From Krasilnikoviella flava (GTDB lineage: Bacteria > Actinomycetota > Actinomycetes > Actinomycetales > Cellulomonadaceae), in contig NZ_FUZQ01000002.1 of assembly GCF_900167525.1 (NCBI RefSeq), positions 186,001-250,000 of the forward strand: 64,000 nt of DNA, written 5' to 3'. Of the stretch, positions 20,920 through 47,166 are shown one piece after another. The position numbers and the translations under genes are program-made. Each line of letters begins with the position of its first letter. Position 1 is the first letter of the stretch. The notes under the pieces were generated by a model. It was not told where the DNA came from, made no database searches, and saw nothing but the letters and a program-made list of their open reading frames with translations.

Positions 20920-23900
20920 ATGAGCTTCGTCTCACGCGTCGTGGAGAACCGCCGGTCGATCGCGTCGGCCGGTGTCGTCGCACTCTTCGGGGCAGGCCTG
21001 ACCGGCTTCGCGCTCTGGTACGACGGCGAGGCGACGGTCGACGTCGACCTCAACGACTCCGGCGTGTGGGTCACGAACGCCGCGGCGGGCGAGGTCGGCC
21101 GGTTCAACCATCAGGCCCAGGCCCTCGACGGCACGCTCCTCGCCAACGCGACGGGTTTCGACGTCCAGCAGGACGCGCAGCGGGTGCTCATGTCGAGCTC
21201 GGGGGACTCGTCGGCCAGCCCCATCGACCCGGCGCAGCTCGCGCTGACCAGCACGATGAAGCTGCCCGGCGGCGCGCAGGTCGCCTCGGGCGGCGCCACC
21301 ACCGCGATCTACGACGGCGAGTCGGGCACCGTGTGGGTGCTGCCCTTCGACGGCGCCGCGTCGTTCGACCCCGAGGAGTCGGAGCCCGCGCTCGAGAAGG
21401 TGGGCAAGGACGCCCGGATCGAGGTGAGCCGGGGCGGCACCGTGGTCGTGGCCTCGGCGGCGGACCAGAAGCTCTGGACGATCCCGACGGGCACGCGCGG
21501 CACCGCCGGGTCTCCCGAGGAGGAGCGGCTCTCGGTGCAGAGCGGCGCGGACGTCCAGGTGACCACCGTGGGTGAGGAGCCCGTGGTGCTGGACCGCTCG
21601 ACCGGCAAGCTCGTGCTCCCCGGCGGTGACGCGGTGGAGATCGACGGCGGCGCGGAGGCACAGCTGCAGCAGCCGTCGGCCGACTCCGACGTCGTCGTGC
21701 TCGCCACGTCGCGCGGGCTGGTCTCCCAGCCCCTGGGTGGCGGGTCGCCGACGAAGCGGACCGCGAACGGCACGCCGGCGCAGCCCGTGCAGCTGGGGGC
21801 GTGCGTGTACGGCGCGTGGTCCGTCTCGGGCCAGGTGGTGCGCGACTGCCCGGGCACGGACGACGACCAGGACGTCGTGCTGGAGGGCCTCTCCGCCGAC
21901 AGCAGCCTCGTGTACCGCGTGAACCGCGACGTCATCGTGCTCAACGACGTCGCGCGCGGCGGGCTGTGGATGGCCGCGGACGAGTTCCAGAAGGTCGACG
22001 ACTGGGACCTGACCATCCCCGAGAACGCGGAGGGCGAGAAGACCGAGTCCGAGGAGACGACGCCGGAGCAGGTCGACCAGTTCGTGGCCGACCGCACGAA
22101 GAAGAACCGGCCGCCGCAGGCGAAGGACGACACGTTCGGCGTCCGGCCCGGCCGCACCACCGTGCTCAACGTGCTGGGCAACGACGTCGACCCGGACGGC
22201 GACGTCATGACCGCCACCGTCGACGGCGAGCCGACGGGCGACGTCGACGTCGAACGGGTCCTGGACGGCGCGGCGCTGCAGGCCGACGTGCCGGCGGACG
22301 CCACCGGCAGCACGACCCTCACCTACCAGGTCGACGACGGCCGCGACGGCACGGACACCGCGAAGGTGACGCTCAAGGTGGTGCCGGAGTCCGAGAACGA
22401 CGCCCCCGTCCAGACGGGGGAGCCCGTGCTGCGCGTCGGCCAGGACGGCACCGGGAGCGTCAAGGTGCTGCCGTACTTCAAGGACCCGGACGGCGACGAC
22501 CTGTTCCTCTCGCACGCCAGCACCGCGGACCCGAAGGACGAGGTGCGCTCGCGCCCGGACGGCACCGTCGAGTTCCGCGACGGTGGTTCGGCCACCGGCC
22601 GCAAGATCGTCGACATCACGGTCTCCGACTCCCGCGGCGAGCCGGTCGAGGGCACCCTGATCGTCCAGGTCGTGGCGACCAACGAGCCGCCGGTCGCGGT
22701 GCAGGATCACGTCACGGTGCTCGCCGGCCAGCCGGTCACGGTGCGGCCGCTGGAGAACGACACCGACCCCAACGGCGACACGCTGCGCCTGGTGCACGTG
22801 GCGGAGAAGAAGGGCCTCAAGATCACGAACAACCTCAACGCCGGGATGTTCACCGTCCAGGGCCACGAGCCCGGCTCCTTCGACATCACCTACCAGGTGA
22901 GCGACGGCCCCAACGCGACCATCGGACTCGTCCGGGTCGACGTGGTCGCGCCGCCGGAGGACGAGGCGCCGCCGGTGGTGGTCTCCGACCAGGTGCTGCT
23001 GCCGTCGGACGGCTCGGCCCTGCTCGACGTGCTGGCGAACGACTCCGACCCGGCGGGCGGCGTCCTCGTGGTGCAGTCGGTCACCGTGCCGGACGACTCG
23101 CCCGTGGACGTGGCGGTGCTCAACCACGACGTCCTCAAGGTCACGGAGAAGCGACGCCTCAACGAGCCCGTGACCTTCGACTACACGGTCGCGAACGGCA
23201 CCGGCTCCGCCACCGGCCAGGTGCGCGTCGTCCCGATCCCCGCCCCCGACACCCTGCGGCCCCCGGAGGCCGGCGCCGACAAGGCGATCGTGCACACCGG
23301 CGACGTCGTGACGATCCCCGTGCTGAACAACGACACCCACCCCGACGGCCTCGACATCGACCTCAACGACGAGCTGCAGGAGGAGCCCGAGGCGGAGCTC
23401 GGCGAGGCGTTCGTCTCGGAGGACGTGGTCCGTTTCAAGGCCGGCGCCGAGGCGGGCACCGCGCACCTCGTCTACGAGGTGCGCGACAGCAACGGGCAGA
23501 AGGACTCCGCGCAGGTCACCATCACGATCAAGGACGACGAGGAGAACACCGCCCCCCAGGTGCCGGACACCGAGAGCCGGGTGCTCAGCGGCAAGACCGT
23601 GCGCATCCCGCTCGAGCTCGACGGCACGGACCCCGACGGCGACCAGGTGACGCTGAGCTCGATCGCGGCCGCCCCGGAGCAGGGCACCGCGACGATCGTG
23701 GACGGCTTCGTCGACTACACGGCGGCCGAGGGTGCGGCGGGCTTCGACTCGTTCACCTATCAGGTCACCGACACCCGGGGCGCGGTGGGTCAGGGCGTGG
23801 TGCGCGTGGGCATCGCCGCGCCGCCGGAGACCAACCAGCCGCCGCAGGCCGTCGACGACGAGACCACGGTGCGGCCGGGCCGCACGGTGGCCGTGCGGGC

Positions 23901-26900
23901 GCTGGAGAACGACAACGACCCCGACGGCGACGAGATCGGCCTCGTCAAGGACGGCTTCGACGGTATGGCGGACGGCCTGAAGCCGAAGGCCGTGAAGGAC
24001 GACGTCGTCCTCGAGGCGCCCGCCGAGGAGGGCGCGACGTCCTTCTACTACACGGTCCAGGACGCCTTCAAGGCGCGCTCCACCGGGTCGATCACCGTGA
24101 ACGTGGATGCCGACGCGCCGCTGCTCAAGCCGGTCGCGAAGGACGACGTGGTCACCGCCGAGCAGGTGCGCGACTCGTCCACGGTGACGGTGGACGTGCT
24201 CGCCAACGACGTCGACCCGGACGGCGTGGGCACCGACCTCGAGGTGTCGGTGGACCCGCCCACCGACGGGGCGACCGTCCGCGAGGACGGGCAGGTGCAG
24301 GTCACGCTGGCGCCGCAGGCGCAGGTGATCACCTACACCGTGACGGACGTTGACGGGCTGGAGGCGAAGGCGTTCGTGCGCGTGCCGGGCGACCAGTCGC
24401 GGCCGTACGTGAAGCCCGGGTCCACCCCGCTGCAGGCGGTCAGCGGCGAGCCGCTGACCGTCGAGCTGGCCGAGCTCGTCGTGGTCCGGGACGGTCGTGA
24501 GCCCCGGATCACGGAGGAGTCGACGGTCGAGGCGACCGAGGGCGCCGCGGTCGTGCAGGACGCGGACACGATCGAGTACACGTCGAGCGAGGACTTCGCC
24601 GGGTCGGCCTCGGTGAGCTTCGAGGTGACCGACGGCGCCGGGCCCGACGACGAGGACGGCAACAAGGCGGTGCTGACGCTACCGATCGACGTCGTGCCGT
24701 CGACGAACCAGCCGCCGAAGGTGGTCGGTTCGCCGACGCTCGAGGTGGCGGCGGGCGAGGACAACACGGTCGACCTGTCCCGGTACGTCAAGGACCCGGA
24801 CAAGGACGCGCTGACGTTCGACGTCGAGGGTGCCAAGGGCATCTCGACGTCCGTGTCGGGCGGCACCGTGACCGCGCAGGTCGAGCCGTCGGTGCCGAAG
24901 GGCACCCGCCAGGACGTCGCGTTCAGCGTCTCGGACGGCAAGAACCCGCCGGTCAGCGGCAACCTCGAGCTCACGGTCGTGGGCTCCACCCGGCCGCTCG
25001 TGCAGACGACGCCCGACAAGGTGCCGGACGCGCACCAGGGCCAGCCGGTGACGATCCCGGTGCTCGAGAACGACACCAACCCCTTCCCGGGCGAGGACCT
25101 GACGGTGGTGGGCGCGTTCGGTGAGACCGGTGCCGGCCAGGTGTCGTACGACGAGCAGAACGTGGTCATCACGCCGGACGAGACCTTCCACGGCGTGCTC
25201 AGCGCCCGCTACGCGGTGCAGGACGCGACCGAGGACCCGGACCGCCAGGTCGAGGGCACCGTGACCGTGACGGTGCTCGGCCGGCCGGAGCCTCCGCGCG
25301 CCCCGAAGGTCGAGGAGGTCCGCTCCGGCACCGTGGTGCTGAGCTGGGAGCAGCCGAACAACAACGGCGCCGACATCACCGGCTACACGCTGCACGCCAG
25401 CGACGGCAAGACCAAGGACTGCACCACCACCACCTGCACCTTCGACGGCCTGACGAACGACGTGGAGTACACGTTCACCGTGACGGCCGCCAACGAGGTG
25501 GGCGACTCCGACGAGTCCGCGGCGTCCCAGAGCGCGCGGCCCGACGAGAAGCCGGACCCGCCCGCGGCGCCGAAGCTCGAGTTCGGCGACGAGCAGCTCA
25601 CGGTGACGTGGACCAACAAGACGTACACCGACCGGTCCCCGATCGAGTGCGTCAACCTGGAGATCAGCCCGGCGCCGGCCGACGGCAAGATCCAGAAGCA
25701 GTGCGTCGAGGGTTCGTCGACCGTCTGGGACGGGCTGACCAACGGGACGGCGTACACGGTGCGCCTGCAGGCGGAGAACCAGGCGCCGGACCCGTCGGAG
25801 TGGGGCGACCCGTCGGCCCCGGAGACCCCGGCCGGGCCGCCGGCCGCGCCCGCCGCGCCGTCCGCGAGCCGCGTCGACACCGCCGTGGGCGGCCAGACGA
25901 CGGTGACCTGGGAGCAGCCGGACACCAACGGCGCGCCGATCGAGATGTACTACCTCGATGTCTACGAGGACGGGTCGAAGGTGCGGACCATCGAGGTCGG
26001 CACGTCGCGGTCGCAGACCGTGCAGGACCTCAAGACGACCGCCACCTACACGTTCACGGTGCGGGCCGAGAACAAGGCGGCGACCTCCGAGGCCAGCCCC
26101 GCGTCGAACGCCGTCGTGCCCTACGGCACGCCGACGGTGCCTGGCAACGTCCGGGCCGCGCTCGGCTCCAGGACGAGCGGTCAGGCGGACGTGACCTGGA
26201 GCGCGGCCTCCGAGTTCCGCGGGCCGAAGCCGTACTACCAGGTGCGTGCCAACGGCTCCGGGGCGCGCAACGTCGGCAACGTGACGTCGTACACGTACAC
26301 GGGACTGTCGAACGGCACGGCGTACACCTTCGACGTGCGCGCCTGCAACGAGTACACCTGCTCCGACTGGTCGGGGAGGTCGGGTTCCGTGACGCCGTAC
26401 ACGACCCCGGGCGCCCCGCGCGTGAGCTGGAACGGCACCACCAACGGCGCCGGCCGGGTGGACGACGGCTCGTTCTCCATCAACGCCCCGAGCAGCAACG
26501 GCGGACGCGCGGTCGACAAGATCGAGTACAAGGTCAGCGGCAGCGCGTCGGACAGCGGCACCAAGACGTCGTGGCCGGCGTCCGTCGGGGTCCCGACCGG
26601 ATACAGCAAGAGCTACACGCTGCAGGCCCGAGCCCACAACGAGGGCGGTTGGGGGGCCTGGGCGTCGGTCACCGGCAAGACGGACGCACCGCCGCAGCCG
26701 AAGGCGACGGTGTCGAAGGGCAACCGCACCGGGGTCATCCCGGACGGCTGCTCGTCCGGCAACTGCAACTACTTCAAGGTCTCGGCCAAGGACTTCGACG
26801 GCACGTCCCACCGCGTCGAGTGCTGGTCGGGCAACAACCCGGACTCGAACGCGGGCTGGCACAACATCCGCATGACGGGCAGCAAGGTCTGGACGACCCC

Positions 26901-27030
26901 GGGCGGCCCCGGCTACGACGTGAAGCTCGGTGCCGACACCACCCTCCAGCTCGACTGCTTCTACGGCTACGACGGCACCCAGGTCGCCGTGGTGATCGAC
27001 GGCAAGCGATATGCCGCGACCACCTGGTGA
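20920..27030 (+). CDS. Giant membrane-anchored Ig-like/cadherin-like and fibronectin III repeat protein
   Basis: A 2036-residue surface protein. Residues 1-11 are basic and cytosolic. One helix follows (about 13-33, SIASAGVVALFGAGLTGFAL). Residues ~35-375 are beta-rich with short repeated strands like a propeller (VWVTNAAAGEVGRFN, TVWVLPFDG, KLWTIPTG). Residues ~395-1455 hold about 11 Ig/cadherin-like units that start like PPxAxDD and carry NDxDPDGD, a calcium-binding-type loop (for example near 421, 520, 614, 900, 998, 1100). Residues ~1457-1920 hold about five fibronectin III units (VVLSWEQPNNNGADITGYTL). The final ~110 residues form a cysteine-containing domain (PDGCSSGNCNYF, HRVECWSGN). 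ATG 20920 has GGAGAGGAA upstream. MoxR follows after 55 bp. Its role is unknown; it could be an envelope-spanning scaffold or adhesin of the secretion-like locus. Confidence 0.85.
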   Translation: MSFVSRVVENRRSIASAGVVALFGAGLTGFALWYDGEATVDVDLNDSGVWVTNAAAGEVGRFNHQAQALDGTLLANATGFDVQQDAQRVLMSSSGDSSASPIDPAQLALTSTMKLPGGAQVASGGATTAIYDGESGTVWVLPFDGAASFDPEESEPALEKVGKDARIEVSRGGTVVVASAADQKLWTIPTGTRGTAGSPEEERLSVQSGADVQVTTVGEEPVVLDRSTGKLVLPGGDAVEIDGGAEAQLQQPSADSDVVVLATSRGLVSQPLGGGSPTKRTANGTPAQPVQLGACVYGAWSVSGQVVRDCPGTDDDQDVVLEGLSADSSLVYRVNRDVIVLNDVARGGLWMAADEFQKVDDWDLTIPENAEGEKTESEETTPEQVDQFVADRTKKNRPPQAKDDTFGVRPGRTTVLNVLGNDVDPDGDVMTATVDGEPTGDVDVERVLDGAALQADVPADATGSTTLTYQVDDGRDGTDTAKVTLKVVPESENDAPVQTGEPVLRVGQDGTGSVKVLPYFKDPDGDDLFLSHASTADPKDEVRSRPDGTVEFRDGGSATGRKIVDITVSDSRGEPVEGTLIVQVVATNEPPVAVQDHVTVLAGQPVTVRPLENDTDPNGDTLRLVHVAEKKGLKITNNLNAGMFTVQGHEPGSFDITYQVSDGPNATIGLVRVDVVAPPEDEAPPVVVSDQVLLPSDGSALLDVLANDSDPAGGVLVVQSVTVPDDSPVDVAVLNHDVLKVTEKRRLNEPVTFDYTVANGTGSATGQVRVVPIPAPDTLRPPEAGADKAIVHTGDVVTIPVLNNDTHPDGLDIDLNDELQEEPEAELGEAFVSEDVVRFKAGAEAGTAHLVYEVRDSNGQKDSAQVTITIKDDEENTAPQVPDTESRVLSGKTVRIPLELDGTDPDGDQVTLSSIAAAPEQGTATIVDGFVDYTAAEGAAGFDSFTYQVTDTRGAVGQGVVRVGIAAPPETNQPPQAVDDETTVRPGRTVAVRALENDNDPDGDEIGLVKDGFDGMADGLKPKAVKDDVVLEAPAEEGATSFYYTVQDAFKARSTGSITVNVDADAPLLKPVAKDDVVTAEQVRDSSTVTVDVLANDVDPDGVGTDLEVSVDPPTDGATVREDGQVQVTLAPQAQVITYTVTDVDGLEAKAFVRVPGDQSRPYVKPGSTPLQAVSGEPLTVELAELVVVRDGREPRITEESTVEATEGAAVVQDADTIEYTSSEDFAGSASVSFEVTDGAGPDDEDGNKAVLTLPIDVVPSTNQPPKVVGSPTLEVAAGEDNTVDLSRYVKDPDKDALTFDVEGAKGISTSVSGGTVTAQVEPSVPKGTRQDVAFSVSDGKNPPVSGNLELTVVGSTRPLVQTTPDKVPDAHQGQPVTIPVLENDTNPFPGEDLTVVGAFGETGAGQVSYDEQNVVITPDETFHGVLSARYAVQDATEDPDRQVEGTVTVTVLGRPEPPRAPKVEEVRSGTVVLSWEQPNNNGADITGYTLHASDGKTKDCTTTTCTFDGLTNDVEYTFTVTAANEVGDSDESAASQSARPDEKPDPPAAPKLEFGDEQLTVTWTNKTYTDRSPIECVNLEISPAPADGKIQKQCVEGSSTVWDGLTNGTAYTVRLQAENQAPDPSEWGDPSAPETPAGPPAAPAAPSASRVDTAVGGQTTVTWEQPDTNGAPIEMYYLDVYEDGSKVRTIEVGTSRSQTVQDLKTTATYTFTVRAENKAATSEASPASNAVVPYGTPTVPGNVRAALGSRTSGQADVTWSAASEFRGPKPYYQVRANGSGARNVGNVTSYTYTGLSNGTAYTFDVRACNEYTCSDWSGRSGSVTPYTTPGAPRVSWNGTTNGAGRVDDGSFSINAPSSNGGRAVDKIEYKVSGSASDSGTKTSWPASVGVPTGYSKSYTLQARAHNEGGWGAWASVTGKTDAPPQPKATVSKGNRTGVIPDGCSSGNCNYFKVSAKDFDGTSHRVECWSGNNPDSNAGWHNIRMTGSKVWTTPGGPGYDVKLGADTTLQLDCFYGYDGTQVAVVIDGKRYAATTW

Positions 27031-27085
27031 CCCTGTCCAGCCGGACCACGACCCCCCGAGACAACGAGCACGAAGGAACACCGAG

Positions 27086-28057
27086 ATGACGATGACCCCC
27101 GAGCAGGCCGCCTGGTTCGCCCAGACGTTCGAGCGCCTCGTCGGCAACGTGGGGCAGGCTGTCCTGGGCAAGGCGCCGGTGGTGCGCCTCGCGCTCACCT
27201 GCATGCTGGCCGAGGGGCACCTCCTGCTGGAGGACGCCCCGGGCACGGGCAAGACGGCGATGGCGCGCGCCATCGCGGCCTCCGTGCAGGGCTCGCACAA
27301 CCGCATCCAGTTCACGCCGGACCTGCTGCCGTCCGACGTCACGGGCGTGACGATCTACGACCAGCGCACGCACGAGTTCGAGTTCCGCAAGGGCCCGATC
27401 TTCGCCTCCATCGTGCTGGCCGACGAGATCAACCGTGCCTCGCCGAAGACGCAGTCCGCGCTGCTGGAGGTCATGGAGGAGAGCCGCGTCACCGTGGACG
27501 GCGTCACGCACGACGTGGGCCGCCCGTTCATGGTCATCGCGACGCAGAACCCGATCGAGCAGGCCGGCACGTACCGCCTGCCCGAGGCGCAGCTCGACCG
27601 CTTCCTCATGAAGACGTCGGTGGGCTACCCGGACCACGCGTCCACGGTGGAGATCCTGACCGGCGCGTCCGTGCGCGACCGCAGCCAGGCGCTGCAGCCG
27701 ATCATCACGACGCAGGCGGTCACGGAGATGGCGACGCTCGGTGCCGCCGTCCACACGGACTCCGCGGTGCTCGAGTACGTGAGCCGTCTCGCCGAGGAGA
27801 CCCGCAACGCCCCCGAGGCCCGGATCGGCGTGTCCGTCCGAGGCGCGCTCGCCCTGGTGCGGTGCTGCAAGGTGTGGGCGGCCGCGCACGGGCGCAACTA
27901 CGTGCTGCCCGACGACGTCAAGCAGCTCGCGCAGCCCGTCTGGGCGCACCGATTCGTGCTCGACCCGGAGGCCGAGTTCACCGGCGCCCGGGCCGAGGTC
28001 GTGCTCGCGCGGATCCTCGCCGACGTCGCCGCGCCGCAGGAGCGCGCCGCGGTATGA
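27086..28057 (+). CDS. MoxR family AAA+ ATPase
   Basis: Cytosolic AAA+ chaperone-like ATPase, 323 residues. Walker A is GTGKT at 53-57 (EDAPGTGKTAMA), Walker B/sensor region is VLADEINRASPKTQSALLEVMEE, and sensor 1 is IATQNPIEQAGTYRLPEAQLDRF. MoxR ATPases typically work with DUF58/vWA and transglutaminase-like partners encoded next to them, as here. ATG 27086 is chosen over 27092 because GAAGGA lies at the right distance. The stop overlaps the DUF58 ATG. In this locus it may remodel or assemble the membrane complex; this is inference. Confidence 0.93.
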   Translation: MTMTPEQAAWFAQTFERLVGNVGQAVLGKAPVVRLALTCMLAEGHLLLEDAPGTGKTAMARAIAASVQGSHNRIQFTPDLLPSDVTGVTIYDQRTHEFEFRKGPIFASIVLADEINRASPKTQSALLEVMEESRVTVDGVTHDVGRPFMVIATQNPIEQAGTYRLPEAQLDRFLMKTSVGYPDHASTVEILTGASVRDRSQALQPIITTQAVTEMATLGAAVHTDSAVLEYVSRLAEETRNAPEARIGVSVRGALALVRCCKVWAAAHGRNYVLPDDVKQLAQPVWAHRFVLDPEAEFTGARAEVVLARILADVAAPQERAAV

Positions 28058-29349
28058 CCTCGACATCGACCTCGGCGTCCCCGGCCGGCCGCACGGCCGG
28101 GCGGGACACCGTCGGAAACACGCTGGGACGCTGGTGGGTGCGGGCGTCCCGGGCCGTCGCCGCACGCTGGGCCACGGTCGTGCGCGCGTGCGCCCCCGTG
28201 ACGCAGGCGTTCTCGACCTTCGGCGTGGCCGTGCTGGTCGTGTGCGTGGGGGCGTGGGTGGCCGGGCTCGTCCTGGGCTGGCTCGAGGTGCTCGTGGGCG
28301 CGGTCGTGCTCACGGTCGCGCTCCTCGCGGCGATCGGGTTCGTGCTGGGGCGCCTGCGGTACGAGGTCTCCCTCACGCTCACCCAGTCGCGCGTGACCGT
28401 GGGTGACCCGGCCGTGGGCCGGCTCGACGTCCGCAACTCCGCGTCGCGGCCGATCCTGCCGTCGGTGATGGAGCTGCCCGTGGGGCGTGGCACCGCCGCG
28501 TTCCCGGTGCCGCGGCTGCGCGGCGGCGGGACGCACGAGGAGATCTTCCGGATCCCGACCCGGCGCCGCGGCGTCATCACGGTCGGCCCCGTGAAGTCCG
28601 TGCGCGCCGACCCGATCGGGCTGCTGCGCCGCGAGGTGACGTGGACGGACGAGCAGGAGCTGTTCGTGCACCCGCAGGTGCAGAACCTGGCGGGGGCGTC
28701 CACCGGCTACCTGCGCGACCTCGAGGGCCGCGCCACCAGGGACATCACCGACTCCGACGTGTCGTTCCACGCCCTGCGCGAGTACGTGGCGGGAGACGAC
28801 CTGCGGCACATCCACTGGAAGACCACGGCCCGGACGGGCACGCTCATGGTGCGCCAGTTCGAGGAGACGCGGCGCTCGCACCTCGCGGTGCTGCTCTCCA
28901 CCCGCGCCGAGGACTACGCGAACGACGACGAGTTCGAGCTCGCCGTCTCGGTGTGCGGGTCGCTCGGCCTGCAGGCCATCAAGGAGGACCGCGGGGTCAC
29001 GGTGCTGGTGCAGTCCGGCAGCCTGCGCGGCGACCACCACACCCGCCTGCTCGACGACCTGTCGCGCGTGGAGCTGGAGCCGTCGCGCCGCGCGCTGGTC
29101 GACCTCGCCCGCGCGGCGGGGAACACCGCCGCCGACGCGTCGGTGATCGCGTTCGTGCTCGGCAGCCGCGTGACCCCGACCGAGCTGCGCTCGGCCTCCG
29201 CCCGCCTGCCCGTGGGGGTGAACGTCATGGCGATCCAGTGCGTGCCGGGCGCGAACCTGGCGCGGCACAACATCGCCGAGGTCGGCGTCCTGACCCTCGG
29301 ACGGCTGGGCGACCTGCCGATCGCGCTGAAGAAGATGAGCGAGTCATGA
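28054..29349 (+). CDS. DUF58 domain-containing membrane protein
   Basis: Usual MoxR partner, 431 residues. Two helices lie at about 52-75 and 78-100, followed by a beta-rich part and the DUF58 signature FHALREYVAGDDLRHIHWKT near 250, then MVRQFEE. The remainder has a vWA-like alternation. ATG overlaps the MoxR stop (ATGA), and TGA overlaps the start of the transglutaminase-like gene. Function in the family is not biochemically settled; coupling to MoxR suggests a substrate or adaptor role at the membrane. Confidence 0.9.
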   Translation: MTSTSTSASPAGRTAGRDTVGNTLGRWWVRASRAVAARWATVVRACAPVTQAFSTFGVAVLVVCVGAWVAGLVLGWLEVLVGAVVLTVALLAAIGFVLGRLRYEVSLTLTQSRVTVGDPAVGRLDVRNSASRPILPSVMELPVGRGTAAFPVPRLRGGGTHEEIFRIPTRRRGVITVGPVKSVRADPIGLLRREVTWTDEQELFVHPQVQNLAGASTGYLRDLEGRATRDITDSDVSFHALREYVAGDDLRHIHWKTTARTGTLMVRQFEETRRSHLAVLLSTRAEDYANDDEFELAVSVCGSLGLQAIKEDRGVTVLVQSGSLRGDHHTRLLDDLSRVELEPSRRALVDLARAAGNTAADASVIAFVLGSRVTPTELRSASARLPVGVNVMAIQCVPGANLARHNIAEVGVLTLGRLGDLPIALKKMSES

Positions 29350-38445: not shown

Positions 38446-41400
38446 GTGCGCATCAAGCTCACCCTGCACCGGTCGGACGCCTCCGCCGTCGACGTCGCGG
38501 TCACCGCGGACGCCACCGCGACCGTCCGCGACGTCGCGGAGGCGCTGTACTCCGGCGACCCGGGCCGCCGCGGCGCGGCCGCCCCGGACAACCTGACCCT
38601 CCAGGTCGTCGGCGACGGCGCCGCCCAGCACACGGTCACGGCCGGCCGCGTGCTCACCCCGACCAGCGACGTCGTCCAGGCGGGCCTGCGGTCCGGCTCC
38701 GGCGTGTCGATCGTGCGGCTGTCCGACCAGTTCGTGCACGCGGGCCAGGACCGCGGTGCGGCCGTCGCCGTCCTGCGGGTGCTCGAGGGCCCGGACGCCG
38801 GGCGCGAGTTCCACCTGCCGGTCGGCACGTCCTACCTGGGGCGCGACCGGGGCATGGACATCCGCCTGCAGGACCCGCAGGTCTCGAAGCGGCACGCCCG
38901 CGTCATCGTGGGCGAGCAGATCGAGATCCACGACCTCGACTCCGCGAACGGGCTGGAGATGGGCGGCAAGCGGATGACCCGCTCGGCGCTCACCTCCTCC
39001 GACACGGTGACCGTGGGCCAGACGGTGATGTCCGTCGTGTCGCTGCACCGGTCCACGAGCCTGGCCCCGACCAGCCCGGTCGTCGAGTTCAACCGGTCGC
39101 CGCGGGTGGTGGCCCGGTTCGGTGAGCACAAGATCACCGCCCCCAAGCCGCCGAAGCCCGTGCCGCCGGGGCGGCTGCCGTGGCTCCCCATGCTGGCGCC
39201 CGCCCTCATGGGCCTCGTGATGTTCGCGTTCTTCAACAACCCGCGGATGCTCGTGTTCATGTTCATGAGCCCGCTGATCATGCTGGGCGTCTACTACGAC
39301 CGCCGGATCGCGCGGAAGAAGGACTTCGAGCGGGCCGCCGAGCTGTTCGAGGAGGCCGTCACCGCCACCCAGGAACGCATCGCCCGGACGCACGCCGTCG
39401 AGCGCGCGGTCCGGATGGCGGAGGTGCCGTCCCTCGCGGAGTCGATCGACGCCGTGCGCCGCCTCGGCGGGCTCATGTGGACGCACCGTCCCGAGCACCG
39501 TGGCTTCCTCACGCTGCGGCTCGGGATGGGCAGCGCGCCCTCGCGCACCGAGTTCACCGAGCCGCGGGAGAACGAAGCGATCCCGGAGCACTGGGAACGG
39601 GTGCTCGAGCTGCAGGCGCGCTGCTCGGTGATCGACGACGTGCCCGCCGTCGGCGCCCTGCGGTACGGCGGCAACGTCGGCCTCGCGGGGCCGGCCGGGA
39701 CGGTCGAGTCCGTGGCGCGCGCCGCGCTGCTGCAGATGGTGGCGCTGCACTCGCCGTCGGAGGTCGTGGTCACGGCCCTGACGTCGCACCGCTCCCGCGA
39801 GGACTGGGAGTGGCTGCAGTGGGTGCCGCACACCGGCTCCCCGCACAGCCCGCTGGGCACGTCGGACCACCTGGCGGCCGACCCGGGCCGTGGGCTCGCG
39901 CTGCTCACCCGGCTCGAGGACCTCATCGAGTCGCGCGGCGTCAGCCTCGACGGGCCTCCGCCCCTGGACGGCGAGCGCGACGCCGAGAAGGACCGCGGCG
40001 AGGCGGCGCCCAAGCCGGTGCTGCCGGCGGTCGTCGTGCTCATCGAGGACGACACGCCGCTCGAGCGGTCGCGGCTGGTACGCCTCACGGAGCGCGGGCC
40101 CAAGGCCAACGTGCACGTCGTGTGGGTGGCCCCGACCGTCGAGCAGCTCCCGGCCGCGTGCCGCACGTTCGTGCTCCTCGACGGGCAGGACGGCGCCGGC
40201 GCGGGCATGACGGGCGAGGTGCACTACGGGCGCCTCGCCTTCCCGGTGCGCTGCGAGGCGGCGGACCTCGCGACGGCGGCGGAGGTCGCGCGCATCCTGT
40301 CGCCCGTCGTCGACGTGGGCGCGCCCGTGGACGACGAGTCCGACCTGCCGCGCTCGGTGTCGTACCTGGCCCTGGCCGGCACCGACCTGGGCTCCGACGC
40401 GGCCGGGGTGGTCGAGCGGTGGAGCGAGAACCTCTCGCTCACCCCCCGCGACGGCTCGCCGCCGGTGCGGCGCAAGACGCCGACCAACCTGCGCGCGCTC
40501 ATCGGCCACAACGGCGTCGAGCAGTTCTACCTCGACCTGCGTACCCAGGGCCCGCACGCGCTGGTGGGCGGCACCACCGGCGCCGGCAAGTCCGAGTTCC
40601 TGCAGTCGTGGGTGCTGGGCATGGCGGCCGCGCACAGCCCGGACCGCGTGACCTTCCTGTTCGTGGACTACAAGGGCGGCGCGGCGTTCGCCGACTGCGT
40701 GCACCTGCCGCACACCGTGGGCCTGGTCACCGACCTGTCGCCGCACCTCGTGCGCCGCGCGCTGTCGTCGTTGCGCGCGGAGCTGCACTACCGCGAGCAC
40801 CTGCTGAACCGGAAGAAGGCGAAGGACCTCGCGTCCCTGGAGCGCACCGGCGACCCGGAGGCGCCGCCGAGCCTCATCATCGTGGTGGACGAGTTCGCCG
40901 CGCTGGTGGGCGAGGTCCCCGAGTTCGTGGACGGCGTCGTCGACGTCGCCCAGCGTGGCCGGTCGCTCGGCCTGCACCTCATCCTCGCGACCCAGCGGCC
41001 CGCGGGCGTCATCAAGGACAACCTGCGCGCCAACACCAACCTGCGCATCGCGCTGCGGATGGCCGACGAGTCGGACTCCAAGGACGTGCTCGGCGACAAG
41101 ATGGCGGCGCACTTCCCGCCGTCGATCCCCGGACGCGGGGCCGCGAAGACCGGCCCGGGCCGCCTCACGACCTTCCAGACCGGCTATGCCGGCGGCTGGA
41201 CGAAGGACGAGCCGGAGCCGTCGCCGATCGACGTCGAGGAGATGGACTTCGGCACGGGGCGCCGCTGGGAGATGCCGACGGTCGCCCGGGCCGACGACGA
41301 CGGGGACCCTGGGCCCAACGACATCGCCCGGATGGTGGCGACGATCCGGTACGCGGCGTCGAGCGCCGGCGTGCCCGCGCCCCGCAAGCCCTGGCTCGAG

Positions 41401-42927
41401 GAGCTGGCCGCCACCTACGACCTGGCCCTGCTGCCCAACCCGCGCACGGACTCGCGCCTGCTGCTCGGCGTGCGGGACGACCCGCACGGACAGGCCCAGC
41501 CGACCGTGCACTACGAGCCGGACCTGGACGGCAACCTGGCCGTGTACGGCACTGGTGGTACCGGCAAGAGCACCACGCTGCGCACGATCGCGGTGTCCGC
41601 GGGCCTCACGGCCCGTGGCGGCCCCGTCCAGGTGTACGGCATCGACTGCGGCTCCGGCGGCCTGTCGATGCTGGAGAGCCTCCCGCACGTCGGTGCGGTC
41701 ATCTCCGGCGACGACGAGGAGCGCGTGTCGCGCCTCATGCGCCGGCTCACCGAGATGCTCGACGAGCGTTCCGCGCGCTACGCGGACGTGCGGGCGAGCA
41801 CGATCGACGAGTACCGCCGCATCGCGAACCGGCCGGACGAGCCGCGCATCATCGTGCTGGTGGACGGCATCGGGTCGTTCCGCGACAACTACGAGATCTT
41901 CGCCGGCCGCGGGTTCTCGGTCTACGGCGCGTTCTCGCAGCTCGCCACGGACGGCCGCCCGGTGGGCATCCACCTGGTGATGTCGGGCGACCGCGCGGTG
42001 GCGGTGCCGCCGGCGCTGGCGTCCACCGTGCAGAAGCGGATCGTGCACCGCATGGCGCGCGAGGACGACTACATGATGCTCAACGTCCCCAAGGACGTGC
42101 TGACGCCCGCGTCGGCGCCCGGCCGCGCGATCATGCACGGTCAGGAGGCTCAGGTCGCGGTGCTCGGCGGCGACCCGAACGGAGCCGTGCAGTCGCGTGA
42201 GCTGGCCAAGCTCGAGCAGACGATGCGGCGCATGGGCACCGTGCAGGCGCCCGGCATCGCGCGGCTGCCCGACAACTTCACGCTGGACACGCTGCCCGTG
42301 CGCACGGGCGAGCTCGCGACGATCGGCCTGCGCGACCTGGACATCACGCCCGTCGGCCTGCCGCTGCGCTCGCCGTTCATGCTGTCCGGCCCGCCCGGGT
42401 CGGGGCGCACGACGGCGTTCGTGACGCTCGCGACCGCGCTGCGTCGCAAGGGCGGCACGCGCCTGGTGTACCTGTCTTCCCGGCGCACGAGCCTGGGTGC
42501 CCTGGACCTGTGGGACCAGCAGGCGGCCAACCCGGAGGACGTCGTCGAGCTCCTGAAGGAGCTCACGGAGCTGTTGAACGCGGAGAGCGTCGCCCCCGGC
42601 GGGCTCGCCGTGATGATCGAGAACTACACGGAGCTCACGGGCACCCCGGCGGAGAAGCCCCTCGAGGCGTTCGTGAAGCTCGCGGTGCGCAAGGAGCACT
42701 TCGTGGTGGGCGAGTCGGAGTCGTCGACCTGGTCGAAGGCGTTCACCCTGGCAGGGCCGTTCAAGTCCGGGCGCAACGGCATCCTGCTGACGCCGGGCGA
42801 CACGGACGGCGACACCCTGATGAACACCCCGCTGGGGCGCATGCGGCGCAAGGACTTCCCGCCCGGCCGCGGGTTCCTCATCACCGCGGGGCGCGCCGCC
42901 AAGATCCACGTCGCCCTGCCGGGCTGA
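38446..42927 (+). CDS. Type VII secretion-type FtsK/SpoIIIE ATPase (EssC/EccC-like) with N-terminal FHA domain
   Basis: Motor protein of WXG100 secretion systems, 1493 residues. The N-terminal ~80 residues resemble a ubiquitin-like (YukD-type) beta-grasp. An FHA domain follows (~105-205; YLGRDRGMDIRL, VSKRHARV, DSANGLEM). Two helices lie at ~244-285. Three P-loop domains follow: D1 Walker A GGTTGAGKS (K715) with Walker B VVDEFA (D815/E816); D2 GTGGTGKS (K1041) with VLVDGIG lacking the catalytic Glu; D3 GPPGSGRTT, where Arg1321 replaces the Walker Lys. D1 should be the working ATPase. FHA at the N-terminus is an EssC/YukB (T7SSb) trait; the EccC form has none. The GTG start is one base after the upstream stop. 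Confidence 0.9.
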   Translation: MRIKLTLHRSDASAVDVAVTADATATVRDVAEALYSGDPGRRGAAAPDNLTLQVVGDGAAQHTVTAGRVLTPTSDVVQAGLRSGSGVSIVRLSDQFVHAGQDRGAAVAVLRVLEGPDAGREFHLPVGTSYLGRDRGMDIRLQDPQVSKRHARVIVGEQIEIHDLDSANGLEMGGKRMTRSALTSSDTVTVGQTVMSVVSLHRSTSLAPTSPVVEFNRSPRVVARFGEHKITAPKPPKPVPPGRLPWLPMLAPALMGLVMFAFFNNPRMLVFMFMSPLIMLGVYYDRRIARKKDFERAAELFEEAVTATQERIARTHAVERAVRMAEVPSLAESIDAVRRLGGLMWTHRPEHRGFLTLRLGMGSAPSRTEFTEPRENEAIPEHWERVLELQARCSVIDDVPAVGALRYGGNVGLAGPAGTVESVARAALLQMVALHSPSEVVVTALTSHRSREDWEWLQWVPHTGSPHSPLGTSDHLAADPGRGLALLTRLEDLIESRGVSLDGPPPLDGERDAEKDRGEAAPKPVLPAVVVLIEDDTPLERSRLVRLTERGPKANVHVVWVAPTVEQLPAACRTFVLLDGQDGAGAGMTGEVHYGRLAFPVRCEAADLATAAEVARILSPVVDVGAPVDDESDLPRSVSYLALAGTDLGSDAAGVVERWSENLSLTPRDGSPPVRRKTPTNLRALIGHNGVEQFYLDLRTQGPHALVGGTTGAGKSEFLQSWVLGMAAAHSPDRVTFLFVDYKGGAAFADCVHLPHTVGLVTDLSPHLVRRALSSLRAELHYREHLLNRKKAKDLASLERTGDPEAPPSLIIVVDEFAALVGEVPEFVDGVVDVAQRGRSLGLHLILATQRPAGVIKDNLRANTNLRIALRMADESDSKDVLGDKMAAHFPPSIPGRGAAKTGPGRLTTFQTGYAGGWTKDEPEPSPIDVEEMDFGTGRRWEMPTVARADDDGDPGPNDIARMVATIRYAASSAGVPAPRKPWLEELAATYDLALLPNPRTDSRLLLGVRDDPHGQAQPTVHYEPDLDGNLAVYGTGGTGKSTTLRTIAVSAGLTARGGPVQVYGIDCGSGGLSMLESLPHVGAVISGDDEERVSRLMRRLTEMLDERSARYADVRASTIDEYRRIANRPDEPRIIVLVDGIGSFRDNYEIFAGRGFSVYGAFSQLATDGRPVGIHLVMSGDRAVAVPPALASTVQKRIVHRMAREDDYMMLNVPKDVLTPASAPGRAIMHGQEAQVAVLGGDPNGAVQSRELAKLEQTMRRMGTVQAPGIARLPDNFTLDTLPVRTGELATIGLRDLDITPVGLPLRSPFMLSGPPGSGRTTAFVTLATALRRKGGTRLVYLSSRRTSLGALDLWDQQAANPEDVVELLKELTELLNAESVAPGGLAVMIENYTELTGTPAEKPLEAFVKLAVRKEHFVVGESESSTWSKAFTLAGPFKSGRNGILLTPGDTDGDTLMNTPLGRMRRKDFPPGRGFLITAGRAAKIHVALPG

Positions 42928-42937: not shown

Positions 42938-42955
42938 ATGGGGAGGGCTCCCCAT
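42938..42955. promoter_or_regulatory. Candidate operator palindrome, copy 2 (upstream of WXG100 gene 1)
   Basis: ATGGGGAGGGCTCCCCAT is a perfect 8+2+8 inverted repeat. It ends 91 bases before the WXG100 ATG. TCTGGT, a possible -10, lies exactly 17 bp downstream (42973-42978), so the right half sits where a -35 element would be. Confidence 0.6.
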
Positions 42956-43046: not shown

Positions 43047-43331
43047 ATGGTCGCAGAGGGTGGCAACGTCTTCGGTCTTGACGTCGAGGCAGTCCGGAGC
43101 CTGGCGAACGTCCTGCGGGAGCAGGCGGAGCAGGTGCGCACGGCGGTCTCCACGATCACGTCGCAGATGGGTCAGACGGAGTGGAACGGCCCGGACGCCG
43201 TGCAGTTCCAGGAGGAGTGGGACGGGACGCACTCGTCGAAGCTGAACGAGATCGCCTCGGCGCTGGACGGGTACGCCACGACGGCGGACAACAACGCGTC
43301 GTCGCAGGAGGACACCTCGAACTCGTACTGA
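43047..43331 (+). CDS. WXG100 family type VII secretion protein, copy 1
   Basis: ESAT-6-like helical hairpin protein of 94 residues. The turn motif W46-N47-G48 (TEWNGPDAVQF) is present and both flanking helices are amphipathic. Such proteins are the secreted substrates, and often co-exported subunits, of EccC/EssC systems. AAGGAG lies 6 bp before the ATG. A canonical C-terminal YxxxD/E signal is not exact (YATTAD, spacing off by one). The coding sequence is identical at every base to 43573-43857. Likely forms dimers with itself or its twin. Confidence 0.95.
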   Translation: MVAEGGNVFGLDVEAVRSLANVLREQAEQVRTAVSTITSQMGQTEWNGPDAVQFQEEWDGTHSSKLNEIASALDGYATTADNNASSQEDTSNSY

Positions 43332-43465: not shown

Positions 43466-43483
43466 ATGGGTAGCGCTCCCCAT
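43466..43483. promoter_or_regulatory. Candidate operator palindrome, copy 3 (upstream of WXG100 gene 2)
   Basis: ATGGGTAGCGCTCCCCAT is the copy-2 palindrome with one arm mismatch. It ends 89 bases before the second WXG100 ATG. TCTGGT again lies exactly 17 bp downstream (43501-43506). Confidence 0.55.
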
Positions 43484-43572: not shown

Positions 43573-43857
43573 ATGGTCGCAGAGGGTGGCAACGTCTTCG
43601 GTCTTGACGTCGAGGCAGTCCGGAGCCTGGCGAACGTCCTGCGGGAGCAGGCGGAGCAGGTGCGCACGGCGGTCTCCACGATCACGTCGCAGATGGGTCA
43701 GACGGAGTGGAACGGCCCGGACGCCGTGCAGTTCCAGGAGGAGTGGGACGGGACGCACTCGTCGAAGCTGAACGAGATCGCCTCGGCGCTGGACGGGTAC
43801 GCCACGACGGCGGACAACAACGCGTCGTCGCAGGAGGACACCTCGAACTCGTACTGA
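43573..43857 (+). CDS. WXG100 family type VII secretion protein, copy 2
   Basis: The 94-residue protein is identical to copy 1, including all synonymous positions, with W46-N47-G48 at the helical turn. ATG 43573 is preferred over the in-frame ATG at 43558 because AAGGAG (43561-43566) fits it and because it gives the same N-terminus as copy 1. The upstream leader is clearly duplicated but has diverged by many substitutions, whereas the coding region has not. It is followed by its own strong hairpin. Confidence 0.95.
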   Translation: MVAEGGNVFGLDVEAVRSLANVLREQAEQVRTAVSTITSQMGQTEWNGPDAVQFQEEWDGTHSSKLNEIASALDGYATTADNNASSQEDTSNSY

Positions 43858-43994: not shown

Positions 43995-45209
43995 GTGGGC
44001 GAAGGGATGTACGGCGCCGATATCGAGGCGCTGCGCCTGCTCGCGGACAAGATCGCGGAGGGCGGCACCACGCTGGAGGCCGCCATCACGGCCGTCGAGA
44101 CGGCCATGCCCGGCCCGGAGGGGTGGGACGGCCCCGACGCGGAGGGATTCCGCTCGGAGTGGGGCGACACGCACGTGACGCGGCTGCGCGACACGGCGAA
44201 CCTGCTGAGCGACGTCGCGACGAAGGTGCGCGACAACGCGGACGAGCAGGACACGACGTCGAACGACTACACCGGTTTCGCCGGCGTGACCACGACCGGC
44301 ACCGGCACGGCCGGCGGTGGCGGTGGCGGTGGAGGCGGCGGCGGGGTCGACGGATCCGAGGAGGAGGGCGGGGAGAACCCGCTCCCGAACGTCGGCTCCG
44401 ACCCGACCGCCGAGCCGACCGACCCGAACGACCCGAACCACACCTGGACCGACGGGTACAACGACCACCGGGGCCCGCAGTCCCGGTACGAGTCCAGCGG
44501 CACCTACGACGAGAACGGCAACTACACGCCGTCCGCCGAGGGCGAGAGCGCCGTCAACCGCCCCGCCGAGAAGGGCGACATCAACCACACGCTCGTCGAG
44601 GGCGAGACCGGCGGCTTCGTCGGCGCCGAGGCCGGGGTCGACGGCAAGTTCGGCGACGAGGACGGCTTCCACGGCTCCGGCGAGGCCGGGGCGTCCGCCG
44701 GCGCCGGCTACGACGCGGCGGGCGAGGTCAGCGTCTCCGAGAACGGGCTGGTCGCGGAGGGCTCCGCCGGCGTCAACGCCGGGGCGGGCGCGAGCGCGAG
44801 CGGTCAGGTCGGGTACGGCGACCACGTCTCTGCGGAAGGCTCCGCCGAGGCGTTCGTCGGCGGTCGCGCCGAGGTGACCGGCGGTGCGTCGATCGGGCCC
44901 GACGGCGTGGGCGTGAGCGCTGGCTTCGACGCCTTCGCGGGGGGCGAGGCGTCCGCCGCCGCCTCCGGTACCGTCGCCGGCGTGACCGCCGGGGCCGAGG
45001 GCACCGTGTACGCCGGGGTCGGCATCACGGCCAACGCGGACGTGAACCTCGGGTTCGACAGCGTGGGTGTGGACCTCGAGCTGGGTGCTGCGCTCGGTAT
45101 CGGCGCCGGCTTCGACGTCTCCCTCGAGTGGTCGCCGGCCGACACCGTCGACGCGATCACCGATGTCGGCGGCGACGTCTGGGACGGGGTCACCGGCGGC
45201 TGGTGGTGA
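43995..45209 (+). CDS. WXG100-domain protein with long Gly/Ala-rich C-terminal domain
   Basis: A 404-residue probable secreted effector or structural protein. Residues ~1-95 are a WXG100-type hairpin with W44-D45-G46 (EGWDGPDAEGF). An 11-glycine run near 107-117 is followed by an acidic linker. Residues ~195-385 are a Gly/Ala/Ser/Val-rich stretch of alternating short segments (AEGSAGVNAGAGASASGQVG, AEVTGGASIGPDGVGVSAGF), without a recognisable catalytic motif. It ends in a Trp-rich SLEWSPADTVDAI...GGWW. The GTG start has GAGGAGG just upstream; ATG 44007 is an alternative. The tail might be a pore-forming or surface domain, but I do not recognise it. No immunity-type gene is obvious. Confidence 0.8.
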   Translation: MGEGMYGADIEALRLLADKIAEGGTTLEAAITAVETAMPGPEGWDGPDAEGFRSEWGDTHVTRLRDTANLLSDVATKVRDNADEQDTTSNDYTGFAGVTTTGTGTAGGGGGGGGGGGVDGSEEEGGENPLPNVGSDPTAEPTDPNDPNHTWTDGYNDHRGPQSRYESSGTYDENGNYTPSAEGESAVNRPAEKGDINHTLVEGETGGFVGAEAGVDGKFGDEDGFHGSGEAGASAGAGYDAAGEVSVSENGLVAEGSAGVNAGAGASASGQVGYGDHVSAEGSAEAFVGGRAEVTGGASIGPDGVGVSAGFDAFAGGEASAAASGTVAGVTAGAEGTVYAGVGITANADVNLGFDSVGVDLELGAALGIGAGFDVSLEWSPADTVDAITDVGGDVWDGVTGGWW

Positions 45210-45241: not shown

Positions 45242-45718
45242 ATGAGCACAGTCACCTACCCGAGCGGGACCTTCCCGGGGTTCCCCGAGGTCACGATGGA
45301 CTGCCCCGAGGGCTGGGTCCCGCACCAGGTCCCTGCGGCGCAGCTCGCGATCGTGCAGGAGCGGCCCGAGGGGGAGTTCCGGCCCAACGTGGTCGTCGTG
45401 ATGCAGCGGCTCGCGCCCGAGCAGACGTTCGAGAACGTCGTCAAGCAGGCGGTCGAGCGGTTCGAGGCGACTCCCGGCTACGAGGAGGTCGGCCGCACGG
45501 AGACGACGATGTCGGGCTTCACGGCAGTCCGCATCGAGGGCGCCTGGGCCACGGAGCAGACCGGGACGATCGCGCAGGCGCTGCGCCTCGCGGTCATCGA
45601 GCACGACGGCGTCCGTGACGTCGTCGAGGTCACCGGCACCTGCGCCGGCCCCCAGGCCACCGAGGTCTGGGCCGTCGTGCGGGCCATCCAGGACAGCGTG
45701 ACCCTGGCCGGCCGATGA
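45242..45718 (+). CDS. Small soluble protein, possible Mog1/PsbP-like (LpqN-type) fold
   Basis: A 158-residue protein with no signal peptide. It starts MSTVTYPSGTFPGFPEVTMD and contains the pattern CPEGWVPHQVP, VVVVMQRLAP and TFENVVKQAVERFEA, resembling the DUF1795/LpqN fold of actinobacterial secretion-linked proteins; this is by eye only. ATG 45242 is used, though GAGGA ends only one base before it; TTG 45230 in frame is an alternative. The stop overlaps the ATG of the next gene, so the two are coupled. Confidence 0.65.
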   Translation: MSTVTYPSGTFPGFPEVTMDCPEGWVPHQVPAAQLAIVQERPEGEFRPNVVVVMQRLAPEQTFENVVKQAVERFEATPGYEEVGRTETTMSGFTAVRIEGAWATEQTGTIAQALRLAVIEHDGVRDVVEVTGTCAGPQATEVWAVVRAIQDSVTLAGR

Positions 45719-46497
45719 CGGACGCGTACGACCCGAACGCCGAGCGGACCAAGCAGCTCGCCGTCGTCAGCCGCAAGGTGGTCTTCGTCGCCTGCGTCGT
45801 GCTGATGGTCGGCGGCGCGCTGCTGATCGTCGACGACCGGGTGGCGCTCGGGATCGGGCTCATCGTCGTCGCGTGGCTGCTCGCCCTGGCCCGTGGCGGC
45901 TGGACCCTCGCGCGGACGCTGCGGGCCGGGAAGGACCGGCAGCGGGCCGTCGTGCCCGCGGCGCCGGTCATGGCGCCGGGGGCGGCCTCGGCGGTCGACC
46001 GCGTGGTCGCCGACCTCGTCGGCATGAACGACGACGGGCTGCCCTACCTCGTCACGGCCACGCCGACCGCCGGCGGGGCGCAGGTCGAGGTGCGCTGGAA
46101 GGTCGAGGAGATGCGCTGGCAGACCCTCTTCGTCAAGGGGAAGGTCGCGTACGCGTGGCGCATGGAGGTCGACCTGGACCCCGCCACCTCGAAGTACCGC
46201 TTCACCGAGTACTCGGGGACGGCGGACGCGCGGGCCTTCGTCGGCCCGGGCGGCGCGGGGGCCCGCGCGAGCTGGAGCTGGCACCGCGGCAAGACCGCGT
46301 TCCAGCGGAAGATGACGGTCGTCGAGGGTGCCGACGGTCAGGTGACCGTGGCCGGATCGACCGGCCCGCGCACGTCGTGGGAGGGTGTGGCGTCGATCCA
46401 GCCCGGCGACGCGAAGGAGCCCGTCTTCACCGTGCTGCGCAACCACGGCTGGCGCCCACGGTTCGACTGGGCCGGCGCCCGCCTGTTCGAGAAGTAG
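45715..46497 (+). CDS. Two-helix membrane protein of unknown function
   Basis: Not recognised. The 260-residue protein has two adjacent N-terminal helices (about 20-38 and 43-60, VVFVACVVLMVGGALLIV and ALGIGLIVVAWLLALARGG) and a soluble C-terminal ~160 residues rich in Trp and Lys/Arg (VRWKVEEMRWQTLFVKGKVAYAWRMEVD, ASWSWHRGKTAFQRKMTV). The ATG overlaps the preceding stop. A link to the WXG100 genes is inferred from position only. Confidence 0.7.
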   Translation: MTDAYDPNAERTKQLAVVSRKVVFVACVVLMVGGALLIVDDRVALGIGLIVVAWLLALARGGWTLARTLRAGKDRQRAVVPAAPVMAPGAASAVDRVVADLVGMNDDGLPYLVTATPTAGGAQVEVRWKVEEMRWQTLFVKGKVAYAWRMEVDLDPATSKYRFTEYSGTADARAFVGPGGAGARASWSWHRGKTAFQRKMTVVEGADGQVTVAGSTGPRTSWEGVASIQPGDAKEPVFTVLRNHGWRPRFDWAGARLFEK

Positions 46498-46518: not shown

Positions 46519-47166
46519 ATGAAGCAGACCACCACCCGCCGTCGTGCCCGGCTCGCGCTCACGGCCCTGATCGTCGCGCCGGCGCTCGCCGCGTGCTCGT
46601 TCTCGGCCGGTGACCTCGAGCCCGTGGGGGACGACGCCGAGGCGAGCCAGTCGGCCGAGGAGGCTCCGGAGGCGTCCGAGCCGGCGCAGGAGGAGTCCGC
46701 CGCGCCGGCCGAGCTCACCACCATCCACGCCGAGCACGTCGCAGCGCGCGTCCCGGCCGACTGGGAGACGGTCGGTGACGCGGACGGCTGGTCGTACGTG
46801 CACCAGAAGTCGAACGAGTCCGGCGGGGTCGCCGGGCGCGTGGGCTTCATGCCGGGCGGCTCCGAGATGACTGCCCAGGAGTCCGTCGACTGGTTCGTCA
46901 GCCAGGTCGAGGGCAAGGGCGTGACCGACGAGAACTACGCGCCCGTGACGACGCTGCGCGGCGAGGCCGAGCGCGCCAACACGTCCTACACGTACTCCAG
47001 CGGCGGCGAGACGTACACCGCCGTCGTGTGGGGCCTCGTCGACGGCAACGGCATCCCGTCGCTCGTGCAGCTGTCCGGCACGTCCGACGTCATGACCGAG
47101 GACTTCGTGCAGCAGTTCGACCAGTCGCTGAACCTCAACGGTGACTGGGAGGGCAAGGCGAGCTGA
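46519..47166 (+). CDS. Predicted lipoprotein
   Basis: The 215-residue protein has a lipoprotein signal peptide: basic MKQTTTRRRARL, hydrophobic ALTALIVAPA and lipobox LAAC with Cys26. An acidic Glu/Ala/Ser-rich linker (about 30-65) leads to a ~150-residue domain starting ELTTIHAEHVAARVPADWETV. Its pattern (a VPADW start, then a closing LVQLSGTSDVMTEDF) resembles the Mog1/PsbP-like fold suspected for the protein at 45242-45718. GAAGGA precedes the ATG. It ends the locus at a very strong hairpin. Confidence 0.78.
   Translation: MKQTTTRRRARLALTALIVAPALAACSFSAGDLEPVGDDAEASQSAEEAPEASEPAQEESAAPAELTTIHAEHVAARVPADWETVGDADGWSYVHQKSNESGGVAGRVGFMPGGSEMTAQESVDWFVSQVEGKGVTDENYAPVTTLRGEAERANTSYTYSSGGETYTAVVWGLVDGNGIPSLVQLSGTSDVMTEDFVQQFDQSLNLNGDWEGKAS

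Follow-up and report, generated by a model that had tools for sequence, protein, structure and literature searches.

Does a type VII secretion ATPase that is encoded among the genes of a signalling and envelope module form one system with them, or do two systems lie side by side? The question is raised by a locus of Krasilnikoviella flava at 20920-47166 (plus strand) of the window, the 64,000-nt stretch of contig NZ_FUZQ01000002.1 analysed here. Its 16 same-strand genes encode an EssC-type ATPase with an FHA domain and three WXG100-type proteins, along with a kinase, a PP2C-type phosphatase, further FHA proteins, a MoxR-DUF58-transglutaminase-like set and a giant repeat protein. As judged from sequence, the locus is a conserved and widespread variant of the type VII secretion system (T7SS), wired to a module of the type described as the PFNA operon in Bifidobacterium.

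Organization of the locus

The genes are listed with their coordinates, strand and the evidence for the assignment; domains were assigned by Pfam and NCBIfam profile scans of the locus proteins.

20920-27030, +, giant envelope protein of 2036 amino acids with one N-terminal transmembrane (TM)-like stretch, Big_9 and fn3 repeats
27086-28057, +, MoxR AAA+ ATPase (AAA_3; Pfam domain, Walker motifs)
28054-29349, +, DUF58 membrane protein (Pfam domain, hydropathy)
29346-31841, +, TgpA_N and transglutaminase-like membrane protein, TGM (Pfam domains, alignment, hydropathy)
31838-33430, +, RDD membrane protein with C-terminal FHA domain, RDD-FHA (Pfam domains)
33427-34290, +, PP2C-type phosphatase (Pfam domain)
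34287-36044, +, FhaG, FHA-domain protein (Pfam domain)
36052-37746, +, Ser/Thr kinase, one TM-like stretch, C-terminal domain predicted to lie outside (Pfam, hydropathy)
37746-38444, +, FhaI, candidate regulator with FHA-like and LuxR-like helical domains (conservation, fold model)
38446-42927, +, EssC-type ATPase, GTG start (NCBIfam matches, fold model)
43047-43331, +, WXG100-type protein, copy 1 (weak PF06013 match)
43573-43857, +, WXG100-type protein, copy 2 (weak PF06013 match)
43995-45209, +, long protein with WXG100-like N-terminus and long Gly/Ala-rich C-terminal part, candidate substrate
45242-45718, +, LpqN/DcrB-like protein, candidate helper (Pfam, solved structure match)
45715-46497, +, small membrane protein, no Pfam family (hydropathy)
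46519-47166, +, putative lipoprotein (LAAC, by eye), no Pfam family

Between 27086 and 42927 stop and start codons are coupled at nearly every gene junction, with five overlaps of 4 nt, one of 1 nt (kinase/fhaI) and gaps of 7 nt upstream of the kinase gene and 1 nt upstream of essC. A screen of GC content at third codon positions (GC3), applied to whole stop-to-stop frames, was passed by 10 of the 16 genes; the other six sit in longer open frames and are supported by domain matches (five) or by conservation (FhaI). A first-pass annotation of this DNA had described a continuous locus that encodes an FHA-EssC ATPase together with three proteins of WXG100 type, which open frames and domain matches confirm.

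Conservation of gene order

In a survey of 119 genomes of the order, EssC matches at E ≤ 1e-100 were found in 62. Near full-length orthologues above 1000 bits are present in 31 of these, the window included, and 30 others scored at most 510 bits; G112, at 861 bits, is not counted among the orthologues. Besides the window, the neighbourhoods of 27 of the 30 other orthologues and of three lower-scoring loci were fetched. Genes for kinase, PP2C, MoxR, DUF58 and TGM share one stretch in 18 of the 27 orthologue neighbourhoods. The remaining nine hold all but the kinase (G086), part of the set (G037 and G058, the EssC gene of the latter lying 6 kb from a contig end), fhaI and rdd (G065), rdd only (G044, G051, G079 and G115) or PP2C only (G063).

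Loci from named genomes were taken as the best 80 of at least 535 relatives, 72 of which extend 9 kb or more upstream. In 65 of these 72 the genes follow one another exactly as tgm-rdd-pp2c-fhaG-kin-fhaI-essC. Singly, tgm, pp2c, fhaG and kin were found in 71 loci each, rdd and fhaI in 69 each, DUF58 in 62 and MoxR in 8, the last two counts being low mostly because the 10-kb flank ends before these genes. The seven other loci comprise three without rdd at its usual position, two in which the filter applied detected no fhaI, one with tgm and rdd swapped, and a Rhodococcus locus (L220) that reads rdd-essC-WXG-WXG, its stretch containing no further PFNA-type gene. Some surveyed and named loci stem from the same genome (e.g. 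G011 and L214, identical). The nearest named EssC sequences among the best 80 relatives, a listing that may omit records of the window's own genome, come from an uncultured Isoptericola (86%; L207) and from Promicromonospora (80-81%; L159, L141).

Co-occurrence and separation of the two modules

Across the survey, fhaI occurs in 29 of the 31 genomes with an EssC orthologue and in 15 of the 88 without one (Fisher p 2e-14). The corresponding counts are 27 and 34 for the N-terminus of the giant (E ≤ 1e-8; p 2e-6) and 26 and 31 for TGM (at least 115 bits; p 3e-6), all p values being without correction for descent. Among the EssC-positive genomes, fhaI is missing from G009 and G063, the giant from G058, G062, G063 and G093, and TGM from G009, G058, G063, G085 and G086; G063 alone misses all three. 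Some of these misses are threshold effects, weaker matches to the giant, TGM or MoxR adjoining EssC in G009, G062, G085 and G086. Within the genus of the window, EssC, fhaI, giant and TGM all occur in the window's genome, G008 and G070, and none of them in G026 and G041. A conserved co-occurrence is thus seen across genomes of the order, as the first-pass annotation had proposed to check.

Of the 119 genomes, 31 contain both giant and TGM but no EssC orthologue; an EssC-type match of another kind (E ≤ 1e-100) is present in eight of the 31 and absent from the remaining 23. Genomes of families f12 and f18 can carry their EssC and PFNA-type loci far from each other, and in all five unlinked loci fetched (G044, G051, G065, G079 and G115) it is RDD-FHA, not giant or TGM, that lies directly upstream of EssC. 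Therefore, genomes with an EssC orthologue nearly always have the signalling/envelope module as well, but the converse does not hold. The closest companion of EssC is RDD.

These separations and the Rhodococcus locus L220 speak for two independent systems, a PFNA-like operon and a T7SS, which inheritance keeps together. Against such independence stand the gene order, kept exactly in 65 of the 72 loci, and a co-occurrence that persists where the loci are unlinked.

The same counts bear on the earlier proposal that giant, TGM and RDD form a new secretion channel. In its favour, the absence of EccB noted for the locus extends to the whole genome, where no match was obtained with a model that does detect EccB within the class (26 of 79 genomes), and the giant may span the wall with its N-terminal TM-like stretch and about 2000 residues outside. 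EccE, MycP, EsaA, EssA and EssB did not turn up in the scans of locus proteins either, no genome-wide search having been aimed at them. Yet giant and TGM are poor channel candidates, because 31 genomes hold both without the window-type EssC, 23 of them without any EssC match at E ≤ 1e-100, and because EssC keeps RDD-FHA alone directly upstream in the five unlinked loci fetched; a second giant even stands as an orphan in the genome of K. flava. We consider a channel of these three proteins highly improbable. Among them, RDD-FHA is the credible membrane partner of EssC, as far as gene neighbourhood can tell.

A common palindromic box and its candidate activator

An 18-bp palindrome, ATGGGGAGNNCTCCCCAT, precedes WXG100 and giant genes and often stands 22-23 nt 5' of TAnnnT. 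In the window it was located, without assignment to a strand, at:

20722-20739, box ATGGGGAGGCCTACCCAT upstream of the giant gene, 0.00 expected in shuffles, TATGGT 33 nt downstream
42938-42955, box ATGGGGAGGGCTCCCCAT upstream of WXG100 copy 1
43466-43483, box ATGGGTAGCGCTCCCCAT upstream of WXG100 copy 2

At up to two mismatches 102 sites were found, of which 89 lie next to the end of essC or to a gene for a giant or a WXG protein; in a control with permuted half-sites the average was 0.78 sites. TAnnnT follows 22-23 nt downstream at 64 of 92 distinct sites, against 0.10 at other offsets. The box did not occur in 400 kb of other sequence from the window's genome, and one copy lies in front of its orphan giant. 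Of 43 genomes with fhaI, 26 show the box, against none of 18 tested genomes that lack fhaI, a count that omits eight genomes of family f4, whose fhaI status was not searched and which carry no box either. In G044, G051 and G020, where the giant locus is not linked to the esx locus, each of the two carries the box. This weighs further against two independent systems, a reading that we regard as rather unlikely. WXG100-type substrates and giant seem to share one DNA control site, and the promoter signature appears to be specific and common to both kinds of gene, whose expression it may regulate. No paper tying WXG100, palindromic activator sites and an FHA domain in Actinobacteria was found in the literature searched, outside which most subscription journals lay.

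FhaI, which is encoded beside essC and is modelled as an FHA-like domain followed by a LuxR-like DNA-binding domain, is the likeliest candidate activator at the box. The modelled C-terminal domain aligns to VqmA, LasR, RhlR and SdiA at 1.4-2.0 Å over 65-73 residues; a profile of FhaI gave one match to solved structures (E 0.57). FhaI may thus resemble these LuxR-type regulators in its modelled C-terminal fold, and it differs from them in its N-terminal domain, which is FHA-like and not an autoinducer domain. Similarly, the box compares with the known geometry of the lux box in being palindromic, of similar length and located near -43, whereas its sequence is its own.

Comparison with known systems

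By domains, the PFNA operon and the window share a kinase with a variable C-terminal sensor, an FN3 giant, MoxR, DUF58, TGM, PP2C and FHA proteins (PMC8430577, PMC6803598, PMC12607495). In those publications Bifidobacterium Pkb2 is reported to phosphorylate the PFNA MoxR, which is the sole experimental link in the chain proposed below, and a fragment (residues 1494-1994) of the FN3 giant has been cloned from B. longum GT15. The window's counterparts of the PFNA set (kinase, FN3 protein, MoxR, DUF58 and TGM) all lie at 20920-37746, with the kinase at the opposite end of the block. In contrast to the PFNA operon as described there, the window adds EssC, RDD-FHA and WXG100 proteins, and its TGM is without the catalytic Cys. 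The operon has been called unique to Bifidobacterium, and PMC6803598 states that no orthologues were found elsewhere; PFNA-type clusters, recognised by their domains alone, are present in other families. No paper joining PFNA and type VII secretion was found in the same literature, where WXG100 occurs together with MoxR or DUF58 in three papers (PMC8191103, PMC11090510, PMC5819568). The earlier label 'poorly described' holds for the combination but not for its halves, both of which have published relatives (T7SSd and PFNA).

The relative on the secretion side, T7SSd, has been reported in Actinomycetota (PMC11217815), and the locus could be read as the T7SSd of Garrett 2024, with the giant as TsdI. 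In outline the parts are alike: T7SSd/T7SSe and the window have in common an FHA-EssC, WXG100 proteins, a membrane kinase (TsdD in T7SSd, matched by the window kinase with its one TM-like stretch) and a large Ig-like protein, and T7SSe additionally shares the PPM phosphatase and a separate FHA protein. Regarding the ubiquitin-like part, T7SSe is reported there to have it as a separate protein and T7SSd to have none, whereas the window has a probable fusion to EssC. The main text of the paper nowhere mentions MoxR, DUF58, transglutaminase, fibronectin or RDD. A counterpart of the small single-TM protein TsdH was not seen among the annotated genes, small open reading frames not having been searched exhaustively.

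Family f4 offers nine loci for comparison that show the layout published for T7SSd, with kinase, large protein and EssC, and that are read as T7SSd by gene content. Their large proteins have TM-like stretches at both termini in eight of nine cases (L236 has the C-terminal one only), and the three scanned carry Big_13/Big_3 Ig domains, not Big_9/fn3. TsdI likewise combines an N-terminal signal and Ig-like repeats with a C-terminal TM, which the window giant lacks, and on these grounds the identification of the giant with TsdI is disfavoured. The EssC proteins of seven of the nine loci form a clade apart from that of the window, both with support of 100 in the Shimodaira-Hasegawa-like approximate likelihood ratio test, in a quick tree with compositional warnings and without a named TsdC. 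In G257 a T7SSd-type locus has a PFNA-type giant and kinase divergent next door, on the other strand (L237:1-2533); hence both EssC lineages occur beside PFNA-type genes. With these differences, identity of the locus with T7SSd is improbable.

Components of the two modules

EssC matched TIGR03928 (E 1.6e-154), TIGR03924 (E 1.3e-99) and TIGR03925 (E 1.1e-90), each below its curated (equivalog) cut-off. A probable ubiquitin-like domain (about residues 1-92) is followed by FHA (104-201), TM and P-loop domains. The assignment of the N-terminus builds on a model with the order beta-beta-alpha-beta-beta. With a YukD profile, weak matches were obtained for 3 among 37 rows of N-termini (best E 0.0059), and single-row matches of similar size were obtained with unrelated families. 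Structure comparison gave a list filled by FHA chains, and therefore the absence of ubiquitin-like chains from it carries no meaning. Two further YukD matches below cut-off were taken as chance, one elsewhere in the genome (E 0.93) and one at 46981-47184, antisense to the lipoprotein gene, where the minus-strand gene reads like a RarD/EamA transporter (by eye). A second EssC-like match (C10:349106, 47% over 292 residues) falls in a large open reading frame whose neighbours resemble genes for an ABC transporter and for WhiB. The stretch shows no WXG100 match, and this candidate was set aside.

Both short WXG100 proteins reached 25.5 bits with PF06013 (cut-off 27.3), with W-x-G visible in the sequences, and one reached 28.6 bits with TIGR03930 (cut-off 44.85); the long protein matched PF25547 (E 0.0083) and TIGR03930 (E 0.011) only. 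Every WXG match therefore falls below the curated cut-offs. Matches to solved structures were weak as well (a tail-needle protein at E 0.01, an ESAT-6-like protein at 0.21 and a third at 0.57). Since PF06013 matches at E ≤ 0.01 occur in 112 of 119 genomes, this family alone is no marker of the system. A strong WXG100 match at C10:698100, outside any EssC neighbourhood and near a GroEL-like gene (by eye), was rejected. No base differs between the two short genes (285 of 285 identical), and the pair in G008 of the same genus, whose protein is 82% identical to that of the window, shows 2 differences in the last 285 bases; this suggests gene conversion or parallel recent duplication. Profile models found no WXG gene after essC in the loci examined among 27 Arthrobacter-group loci (e.g. 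L158, L151) and in G005; the loci examined have ordinary genes downstream of essC, one reading like a DNA ligase.

The LpqN/DcrB-like protein has no hydrophobic signal stretch, and its residues 1-154 match the solved structure 3lyd. DcrB relatives include type VI chaperones. Such or similar-looking small proteins adjoin WXG-type genes in several lineages (window, L206:19063-19539, L121, G051 and G079, the last three judged by eye), and possibly they are substrate chaperones.

The giant comprises 11 Big_9 and 4 fn3 stretches, and hydropathy shows no TM-like stretch at its C-terminus. The orphan second giant (L221:8824-15204, minus strand of C10) is 79% identical over the first 500 residues, with no other PFNA-type gene noticed nearby. 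MoxR has invariant Walker motifs in 36 of 36 rows. In TGM, the aligned column that we take from TgpA-type motifs to be the catalytic Cys position holds Asp 86, Glu 16, Ala 1, Ser 1 and Cys 0 times in 104 rows (Asp532 in the window), in agreement with the pseudo-transglutaminase of the earlier annotation, and the domain is predicted to lack the catalytic Cys throughout. The kinase/PP2C/FHA set noted there also stands, kinase and phosphothreonine-site (FHA) residues being nearly invariant across relatives.

A tRNA-Pro call at 35177-35271 runs antisense within fhaG and was taken as false. Upstream of the locus, 18370-19248 encodes a potassium channel-like protein (TVGYGD).

Proposed working of the system

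Gene order, co-occurrence, residue conservation, the box with its place and the fold models are the observations from which we infer each of the following steps. We think it fairly probable that the locus represents a T7SS variant, belonging to Micrococcales-type actinobacteria, that couples an export module to a signalling/envelope module. The former would consist of EssC with its probable ubiquitin-like and FHA domains, RDD-FHA, the WXG100-type proteins and the LpqN/DcrB-like helper, and the latter of the kinase, PP2C, the FHA proteins, MoxR-DUF58-pseudo-transglutaminase and the giant. The kinase would sense something outside the membrane and might phosphorylate MoxR, by analogy with Bifidobacterium Pkb2, as well as threonines that the FHA domains of RDD, EssC, FhaG and perhaps FhaI would read. 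Phosphothreonine reading may then assemble or open the EssC/RDD export site. FhaI would activate one promoter type (box and -10) at WXG100 and giant genes, and substrates and surface protein would therefore be made together. MoxR-DUF58-pseudo-transglutaminase may serve as an envelope chaperone for the giant, and PP2C would reset the state.

More tentatively, and as a possibility that we hold with less than even confidence, the whole could be a phosphothreonine-controlled secretion regulon. FhaI and the kinase/PP2C pair would switch a lux-box-like promoter of the substrates and of a wall-spanning giant, and the kinase would license both EssC/RDD and the MoxR-pseudo-transglutaminase chaperone. 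The PFNA operon, which is currently interpreted as sensing host cytokines, would then be related to this system.

The coupling of export and signalling modules brings together two lines of work, on T7SS variants and on PFNA, and places the MoxR-DUF58-TGM and FN3 genes in a context that can be tested outside the gut. The promoter signature may help to find further substrates, and for the missing ubiquitin-like component a place is suggested, fused to EssC. Phospho-control of type VII secretion becomes testable in soil bacteria such as Arthrobacter or Isoptericola.

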